From NCBI RefSeq assembly GCF_907163265.1, contig NZ_CAJQUM010000001.1:1240001-1304000 (forward strand): a DNA stretch of 64,000 nt, written 5' to 3'. The notes beneath the pieces are model-generated. The model ran no database searches. It was not told the origin of the DNA and saw only the letters and a program-made list of their open reading frames with translations. Source of the DNA: Georgfuchsia toluolica. Lineage in GTDB: Bacteria > Pseudomonadota > Gammaproteobacteria > Burkholderiales > Rhodocyclaceae. The first letter of the stretch is position 1. Every line of letters starts with the position of its first letter. This document shows positions 38,924 to 45,751 of this stretch, one piece after another. Both the position numbers and the translations under genes were made by a program.

Positions 38924-38968
38924 GAGGGTGAAGATAAGTTAACGTGAAAAAGCAGCGATGAAGCGCCT

Positions 38969-39164
38969 TGTGATATCGAGCGCAGCGAGCCGATTGATAG
39001 CCCCGCCCCGGGGGTTGAGGCGGGAATTCGCAAAGCACGGCTTTGCGCCGCCGAGACGGGCGAGCCATGCAGGGCGAGCCCTGGAGCAGGTATGGGGGCG
39101 GGGGGCGTTCAATTTGCCTTTACGCATTTTTATCATCAAGGGTGGCGCTGGCGGCCATGCGCGT
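38969..39164 (-). repeat. ~195-bp structured interspersed repeat, copy A (after acpP)
   Basis: Shares about 85% identity (estimated by eye) with the inverted copy at 44817-45011, including an exactly identical stretch of about 65 bases (39027 onward). It contains three self-complementary parts: cccgcc/ggcggg, gcaaag-cacgg-ctttgc and gggcgagcc-atgca-gggcgagccc. In the direction of acpP transcription it starts 5 nt after the acpP stop. Spurious frames across both copies encode the same peptide because the DNA is repeated. Confidence 0.88.
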
Positions 39165-39169
39165 CAGGA

Positions 39170-39406
39170 TTACTTGACGTTGGCGTTCACGTAATCAATG
39201 GCCTGCTGCACGGTGGTGATCTTCTCGGCAGCTTCATCGGGTATTTCGCACTCGAATTCCTCTTCGAGCGCCATCACGAGTTCCACAGTATCGAGCGAGT
39301 CGGCGCCGAGATCGTCGACGAATGAGGACTCATTCTTGATTTCAGCTTCGTTGACGCCCAGTTGTTCGGCGACTATTTTCTTGACGCGTTGCTCAATGTT
39401 TTCCAT
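39170..39406 (-). CDS. acpP: Acyl carrier protein
   Basis: 78 residues, acidic, with the phosphopantetheine site [21 protein letters not shown]. Strong ggaagga-type ribosome site. Carries growing acyl chains for the fab enzymes around it. Confidence 0.98.
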
Positions 39407-44226: not shown

Positions 44227-44817
44227 ATGTCGCATTCGGCGCACAAACTGGTTCTCGCCTCCACCTCGTCCTACCGGCGCGAACTGCTGGCGCGCCTGCA
44301 AATCCCGTTTGAGGTAGCCGCACCGGAAGTCGACGAATCGGCTCTGGCAGGCGAATCTCCCGGGGCGACCGCGGAACGCCTTGCCGAGGCCAAAGCTCGC
44401 GATGTCGGAATGCGCTTTCCCAATGCATTGGTCATCGGCAGCGACCAGATAGCCTACAACGCCGGTGGACGCTTTGGCAAGCCGGGCACGCGCGACAAGG
44501 CCGCCGCGCAGTTGCGCGCCATGAGCGGCGGTTCGATTTTCTTTCATACCGGCCTCTGCTTGTTCAATACGGCCACCGGCAATGTGCAATTGCGCGGCAT
44601 TCCGGTGGAGGTCGGCTTTCGTACCCTGACTGAAGCCGAAATCCAGCGCTACCTTGACCGCGAAGATGCCCTTAATTGTGCCGGCAGCGCCAAGTCCGAA
44701 GGCCTTGGTATTGCCCTGATGCGTTACCTGCGCGGCGACGATCCGAATGCCCTGATCGGCCTGCCGCTCATCGCGCTGTGCGACATGCTGCGCGCCGAAG
44801 GCATGACCGTGCCCTAA
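44227..44817 (+). CDS. yceF: Maf/YceF nucleotide pyrophosphatase (7-methyl-GTP type)
   Basis: 196 residues: [57 protein letters not shown] (catalytic Asp), [26 protein letters not shown]. The SxxR and KxxD-type residues match the YceF subgroup, which hydrolyses modified nucleotides. Divergent from yceD. Repeat copy B begins directly at its stop codon. Confidence 0.92.
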
Positions 44818-45011
44818 CGCGCATGTTGCCGGCGCCACCCTTGATGATGAAAATATGCGAAAGGCAAATTGAAGGCCCCCCACCCCAACCTGCTCCAGGG
44901 CTCGCCCTGCATGGCTCGCCCGTCTCGGCGGCGCAAAGCCGTGCTTTGCGAAACCCCGCCTCAACCCCCGGGGCGGGGTTACTGATTTGCTCGCTGCGTT
45001 CAATAGTCACA
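44817..45011 (+). repeat. ~195-bp structured interspersed repeat, copy B (after maf)
   Basis: Inverted relative to copy A on the map but in the same orientation relative to the upstream gene, beginning at the maf stop codon. It carries the same three hairpin-forming parts and the same ~65-base identical core. It ends 29 nt before the rsmI-like start. Confidence 0.88.
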
Positions 45012-45040
45012 ATTCGCACTGTTTTTGCCTTTTCGCGCTA

Positions 45041-45751
45041 ATGACGGGGACGCTCTATTTGATTCCTGTCGCACTCGGCGATACCGTCTGGGCCGAATTT
45101 CTGCCGCAACGCACGCGTGACATTGCCTGCACGATTACTTATTTCGTCGTCGAAAACGCCAAAACGACACGCGCCGAACTCAAGCGCATGGCCCATCCGC
45201 GACCGTTGCGCGAACTGGCCATCGAACAGCTTCCCGAAAAGCCTGATGGCCAGCAGATCGAACATCTACTGGCACCCTTGCAGGCCGGCCACGATCTCGG
45301 CCTGATGTCCGAAGCCGGCTGCCCCGGCGTCGCCGACCCCGGCGCCCTGCTGGTGCAACGCGCGCATGAACTGGGTATTCGCGTGGTACCGCTGGTCGGC
45401 CCTTCATCGATCCTGCTGGCGTTGATGGCAGCGGGCCTCAACGGCCAGCAGTTCGCCTTCCACGGCTATTTGCCGGCGCGTGAACCCGAGCGCAGCGCCA
45501 GGATCGGCGAACTGGAAAAGGAATCGCAACGATTCAACCAGACACAGGTCTTCATCGAAACGCCCTATCGCAACGAGGCGCTATTCGAGGCACTGTTGAA
45601 GACCTGCAAACCCAATACACGTCTTTGCGTTGCCAGCAACCTGACGCTCGCCGACGAACAGATAGCGACCCGGCGCATCGCACAATGGCGCACTGCCACC
45701 TCGCCGTCACTGCATCACCGGCCCACGGTTTTCCTGCTCAACGCAGGCTGA
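45041..45751 (+). CDS. RsmI-like SAM-dependent methyltransferase (tetrapyrrole methylase fold)
   Basis: 236 residues: LYLIPVALGDTVWAEFLPQRTRDI, GLMSEAGCPGVADPGALLVQRAHELG, VPLVGPSSILLALMAAGLNGQQFAF, VFIETPYRNEALFE. This is the RsmI-related family that modifies 16S rRNA C1402. This shorter subgroup (with ALGD in place of LGNLGD) is common beside sppA in betaproteobacteria and may have another target. Its 3' end overlaps the convergent sppA gene by 14 nt. Confidence 0.87.
   Translation: MTGTLYLIPVALGDTVWAEFLPQRTRDIACTITYFVVENAKTTRAELKRMAHPRPLRELAIEQLPEKPDGQQIEHLLAPLQAGHDLGLMSEAGCPGVADPGALLVQRAHELGIRVVPLVGPSSILLALMAAGLNGQQFAFHGYLPAREPERSARIGELEKESQRFNQTQVFIETPYRNEALFEALLKTCKPNTRLCVASNLTLADEQIATRRIAQWRTATSPSLHHRPTVFLLNAG

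Follow-up and report, generated by a model that had tools for sequence, protein, structure and literature searches.

The window, which here means the whole stretch of 64,000 nucleotides of Georgfuchsia toluolica that was analysed (C1:1240001-1304000 of the 3.47-Mb main contig), contains two copies of a repeat, one in the gap between acpP and fabF and the other in the gap between maf and a gene for a SAM-dependent methyltransferase (Table 1). A preliminary description had given each copy an extent of ~195 bp (38969-39164 and 44817-45011), which is too short; alignments of many copies give lengths of 225 bp and 224 bp. Its remaining account of the pair agrees with what is seen. An identity of ~85% with a ~65-base identical core had been estimated, and alignment gives ~85% mean column identity and ~64 identical bases. 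The acpP copy and the maf copy do share one orientation with respect to the gene upstream of them, and both do start within a few bases of that gene's stop codon. The maf copy starts at a distance of 0 nt, its first base lying directly after the maf stop TAA (44815-44817). Between the acpP TAA (39170-39172) and the acpP copy lie 6 nt; the copy begins immediately 3' of a second in-frame stop, TGA (39166-39164), and this second stop supplies the TGA of the CTGA tetranucleotide to the left of the copy.

At its other end, the maf copy runs up to the methyltransferase gene: the last A of the copy is the first base of that gene's likely ATG (window 45035-45045), and no obvious ribosome-binding site remains inside the end of the copy, ahead of the gene.

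Table 1. Position of the two element copies and their parts (window coordinates)
Feature	Position	Strand	Basis
Element copy 1, long form, in the acpP-fabF gap	38939..39163	-	32-71 aligned copies define the borders
Host target tetranucleotide CTGA, left of copy 1	39164..39167	-	Sequence and left-border statistics
Internal REP-like module, copy 1	39027..39090	-	Short form lacks the module; module also found alone elsewhere
Central GC-rich hairpin, copy 1	39000..39024	-	Compensatory changes across the family
Element copy 2, long form, gap between maf and SAM-dependent methyltransferase gene	44818..45041	+	Alignment and covariance-model borders
Host target tetranucleotide CTAA, left of copy 2; TAA is the maf stop	44814..44817	+	Sequence; stop codon at this position in element-free relatives
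Internal REP-like module, copy 2	44889..44953	+	As for the copy 1 module
Central GC-rich hairpin, copy 2	44952..44980	+	Compensatory changes across the family
Right-end tetranucleotide CTAA, copy 2	45038..45041	+	Sequence, right-border statistics, alignment with empty sites

An abundant, dispersed repeat family

The two copies belong to an abundant dispersed repeat family. Searches of the window's own genome with each copy found ~46 distinct places and two forms, of ~225 bp and ~150 bp; the short form is the long form minus its middle, i.e. without the extra REP-like module, and the overall length range is about 150-230 bases. A genome-wide covariance search, proposed in the preliminary description and carried out with a model built from 16 short copies, brings the count in this genome to at least 75, so the pair in the window is not due to chance. 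The same model finds 46 copies in relative G002, 26 in G007, 7 in G018 and 6 in G009, while the matches listed for the same-genus genome G001 are partial only. A pattern scan of GTDB genomes gave 115 stretches; the listed records are nearly all from Rhodocyclales, Sulfuritalea or unnamed betaproteobacterial MAGs, with one labelled Burkholderiaceae. The family is apparently undescribed in the papers and the RNA library that were searched. (The sequence analysed comprised the copies with their flanks and the integrase regions.)

The REP-like module also occurs without the element ends, at G000:C1:2449242, 1521324, 2110100 and 1727139 (L020, L022, L039, L046) in the window's genome. The hairpin of this stand-alone module shows paired changes as well, and the module is a separate repeat family nested in the long form.

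Borders, target motif and hairpins

The alignments define both borders of the element. On the left, a host tetranucleotide YTRA (mostly YTAA) is followed by CGCGCATGG or CGCTCATGG; on the right, most copies read ...TTTCACG and then YTAA. The YTRA/YTAA left border is also present at sites away from stop codons. There is no correlation between the left and right tetranucleotides of 207 copies, and the flanks of 121 copies contain no target-site duplication of 2-8 bp above chance. The ends carry an inverted repeat, TTAACG...CGTTAA, that stops after 6 bases.

Three hairpins had been proposed for the repeat, together with a search for compensatory changes. Such changes are seen in the central hairpin, which is 98% paired across 81 independent copies and shows both U-A/C-G and C-G/G-C exchanges; this strong covariation upholds the central hairpin, and paired changes are seen as well in the long form's REP-like hairpin. 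Support for the end hairpins is weaker: covariation reaches z=3.0 on the left and z=4.0 on the right when compared with arms shuffled among copies, the right arms being the best of five offsets. A pairing over long range between the left end and the GCTCGCTNCGCTCG motif, indicated by RNAalifold, was rejected, since it is only 62-82% paired in the 81 independent sequences, far below the central hairpin. (Within the GCTCGCTNCGCTCG motif, at short-form alignment positions 107 and 116, two T's change jointly to G's, turning GCTCGC..GCTCG into GCGCGC..GCGCG; this concerted change is not base pairing.)

Empty sites in related genomes

Three relatives were searched with the flanks of individual copies, spliced together as if the element were absent. 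The alignments become continuous across the junction exactly once CGCGC...YTAA is removed. At maf, glnA, clpX and the L010 gene, element-free relatives have a stop (TGA, TAA or TAG) at the same codon, and the stop therefore predates the insert; relatives probably have a stop at the same codon at L005 too. The maf junction of the relatives has the sequence ...CCCTGA|TGACG or |TGGCA; apart from a TGA in place of the TAA, removal of CGCGC...CTAA leaves just this. The acpP gene of the relatives is followed by different spacers with no element, and none of the insertions tested is common to the nearest relative, G001.

Placement behind stop codons

Gene context was taken from a simple codon-based gene caller, which is crude, and genes that it missed would lower the null used below. 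In the window's genome, the stop codon of an upstream co-directional gene forms the exact left border of 34 of 71 copies; the copies lie on the same strand as both neighbours in 48 cases, antisense to both in 6, between divergent genes in 9 and between convergent genes in 8. The preference for stop codons and for one orientation that had been anticipated from the pair is thus present in this genome. Exact placement is also seen in the carriers G002 (13/27), G007 (3/13), G009 (3/6) and G018 (1/4). In a first count of 50 exact copies, the border stop was TAA in 36, TGA in 9 and TAG in 5, whereas the stop usage of the genome is TGA-dominated.

As a neutral null, insertions were allowed to fall at any non-coding position directly 3' of a YTRA (or, more narrowly, a YTAA). 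For the loci of the relatives, this null predicts 27% of insertions at stops (YTAA, 16.5%) and 69% in sense orientation (YTAA, 60%); the 86 independent copies observed there include 26 at stops and have an orientation of 45:23, with 25 sense versus 23 antisense among the non-exact copies. Both the share at stops and the orientation roughly fit the null, except that the share at stops exceeds the narrower YTAA version (P=0.001). For the window's genome, the null is 13% (YTAA, 9%) at stops versus the 34/71 seen (P ~1e-12), and the sense to antisense ratio is 48:6; taking the gaps that were hit as given (their median length is 34 bp), the null gives 19-20 exact placements, and 29 are seen. A preference beyond the neutral null is thus found in the window's genome, but the 86 copies of the relatives show no clear excess. 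(An earlier null, drawn from the window only, gave 11% stops among YTRA sites; it has been superseded by these matched nulls, which make for a weaker claim of active targeting.) A strong excess of copies exactly at stops is thus confined to the window's genome (34/71), as compared with the GTDB relatives (26/86).

The stop placement and the sense orientation are mostly the result of a strand-specific target together with survival outside genes. A residual excess, both at stops and of sense copies, is left in this one genome; that at stops may reflect gene-caller bias or a real lineage difference. The preliminary description had offered, as one of two possibilities, a mobile repeat that targets stop regions. 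This largely holds, as the sites differ between genomes, empty sites exist, and YTRA coincides with TAA/TGA.

At two further loci, L011 (C1:1180145) and L023 (C1:3390490), the reading frames of the upstream proteins (by eye HisZ-like and RibF-like) continue into the element for ~10-15 codons, which gives these proteins repeat-encoded C-terminal tails.

A possible function in RNA

The other possibility offered was a transcribed element of the 3'-UTR or intercistronic RNA. Its transcript would act behind a gene or between the genes of an operon, as a processing site, stabiliser or attenuator, and selection would favour sense copies behind stops. We regard such a function as unlikely. It would account for the excess over the neutral null in the window's genome, both at stops and of sense copies in co-directional pairs, and for the conservation of the hairpin, and there is a precedent in ERIC elements, which have an orientation-dependent effect on mRNA (PMC2229807). 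The non-exact copies of the relatives, however, are about evenly divided between sense and antisense, divergent and convergent copies exist, and the insertions tested are absent from the nearest relative. Furthermore, no sites resembling promoters occur in the element, nor any resembling a terminator when read in the sense direction, and Rfam gives no match to it above the gathering score (within the window, only two tRNAs matched). The hairpin covariation predicted in the preliminary description is present, but it fits mobility as single-stranded DNA equally well. With divergent, convergent and antisense copies and lineage-specific sites, there is little to support a transcribed RNA element and no need to invoke one, and the idea of a conserved RNA regulator finds no support; for single operons, effects like those of ERIC (PMC2229807) are possible.

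A proposed model of single-strand transposition

The features above suggest instead a non-autonomous, gene-less mobile element that is moved as single-stranded DNA and is IS200/IS605-like in its anatomy; we put the probability of this reading at roughly 0.6. Elements of the IS200/IS605 group have a strand-specific target, insert 3' of it without making a duplication, have a right end closed by an equivalent tetranucleotide, and carry subterminal hairpins (PMC7290912, PMC6006769). The element described here likewise lies 3' of a specific tetranucleotide, has an equivalent tetranucleotide at its right end, and lacks a target duplication. Insertion would occur in one orientation directly 3' of YTRA (mostly YTAA), the element itself ending in YTAA, through the 'peel-and-paste' single-strand transposition of IS200/IS605-type Y1 HUH enzymes. 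We infer that a Y1 transposase, now lost or yet to be identified, would have acted in trans. Because TAA or TGA preceded by a pyrimidine is itself a YTRA, an insertion behind a stop codon would leave the protein intact and place the element on the gene's own strand. Since the gaps are short (median 34 bp), the stop codon would often be among the very few sites where an insertion survives.

The closest parallels are the ends-only elements derived from IS200/IS605 (PATEs), which also insert strand-specifically and without duplication 3' of a fixed tetranucleotide and end in an equivalent tetranucleotide on the right; PATEs have hairpins near their ends, which in the element are less well supported (PMC7290912, PMC6006769). 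In contrast to PATEs, the element has an additional, strong hairpin at its centre, a TnpA sharing its ends has not been found, its alignments revealed no guide tetranucleotide 5' of a hairpin foot that would pair with the target, and it shows no replication-strand bias: 36 of 71 copies are co-directional with the fork, if the terminus is assumed to lie opposite dnaA. (A preference for the lagging-strand template is known for IS608 and ISDra2, though not for every family member (PMC7290912). A scan with a dif-like pattern gave no match.)

Y1_Tnp searches of the carriers, many of them draft assemblies, found no transposase with the element's ends, and G007 has no Y1_Tnp match at all. For this reason the element is said to work like an IS200/IS605-type element rather than to be a member of that group; membership is unproven. 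IS200-type genes occur in G005 and G011, without the element's ends. The window's genome has an IS200-type TnpA fragment (3142173-3142376, L076) and a decayed RAYT-like gene (G000:C1:3354190-3354807, L077), neither with adjoining element-like sequence. The left end also has a match in G037 (L060), within coding sequence, and this was put down to chance.

It is quite unlikely that the element is of the REP/BIME type and moved by a RAYT enzyme. The long form does contain a REP-like module, and RAYT-like genes are present in the carriers G018, G009 and G002, besides the decayed one in the window's genome. As with REP, REPIN and BIME sequences, the copies are intergenic palindromes without duplication, and the long form is a mosaic. 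However, no element-like sequence flanks the RAYT loci, G007 has no RAYT-like gene, and the element ends lack a GTAG or GGAG tag; moreover, the element measures ~150-230 bp, as opposed to 20-40 bp for a REP. GTAG REPs reportedly provide neighbouring genes with TAG stop codons (PMC3733652), so a repeat that contributes stops is not new in itself.

A MITE with a TA target, of the IS630/mariner or the Correia/ERIC type, in which the ends TTAACG...CGTTAA would include a duplicated TA, is improbable. TA is usually present at both ends, next to the 6-base inverted repeat, but among the 100 copies in which both tetranucleotides could be read, 15 combine a left TGA, without TA, with a right TAA, and duplication does not exceed chance at any length. 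ERIC, YPAL and Correia sequences resemble the element as short, non-coding, mobile intergenic repeats, often cotranscribed with their neighbours (PMC2229807); ERIC and Correia, however, make TA duplications and YPAL duplications of 3-26 bp, and most have terminal inverted repeats, whereas the element has no duplication and a repeat of at most 6 bases.

Equally improbable is a variant of the single-strand reading in which the cleavage motif has come to coincide with stops, gene ends serve as safe harbours, and the enzyme lies outside the known Y1 families, in keeping with the lack of a Y1 match in carrier G007, conceivably being the resident integron integrase.

An intact integrase gene of this kind is present in the window's genome (G000:C1:3360827-3361771; L218, L226), and in G002, G018 and G011 classic attC repeats, unlike the element, stand beside an integron integrase. 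The idea that the copies are dispersed attC-like sites moved by the resident integrase draws on attC sites lying behind stop codons in sense orientation and on R-box-like ends (TAAC...GTTA), but it is highly improbable and was rejected: the essential GTT of the R' box (GTTRRRY) is GCT (GCTAA) in ~40% of copies, no L boxes lie at the required distance (5-6 nt inside the R boxes), the left and right ends do not covary, no G precedes the left end, genuine attC repeats of related integrons differ in sequence, and the integrase region has no cassette-like array of elements, only ordinary copies between chromosomal genes.

Implications

The element is thus a new family of a known kind, and its target motif accounts for most of its striking placement. 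Lying in sense orientation just past a stop codon looks regulatory, yet it can arise mostly from target choice and survival, with no RNA function. For annotators of such genomes, C-terminal read-through extensions and displaced start sites are to be expected at element borders. Were the movement to depend on an enzyme outside the Y1 families, the element would model the first attachment of recombination sites behind genes, as integron cassettes require. The family is common in Sulfuritalea-type Rhodocyclales, and its set of filled and empty sites can serve for testing the hypothesis of single-strand transposition.
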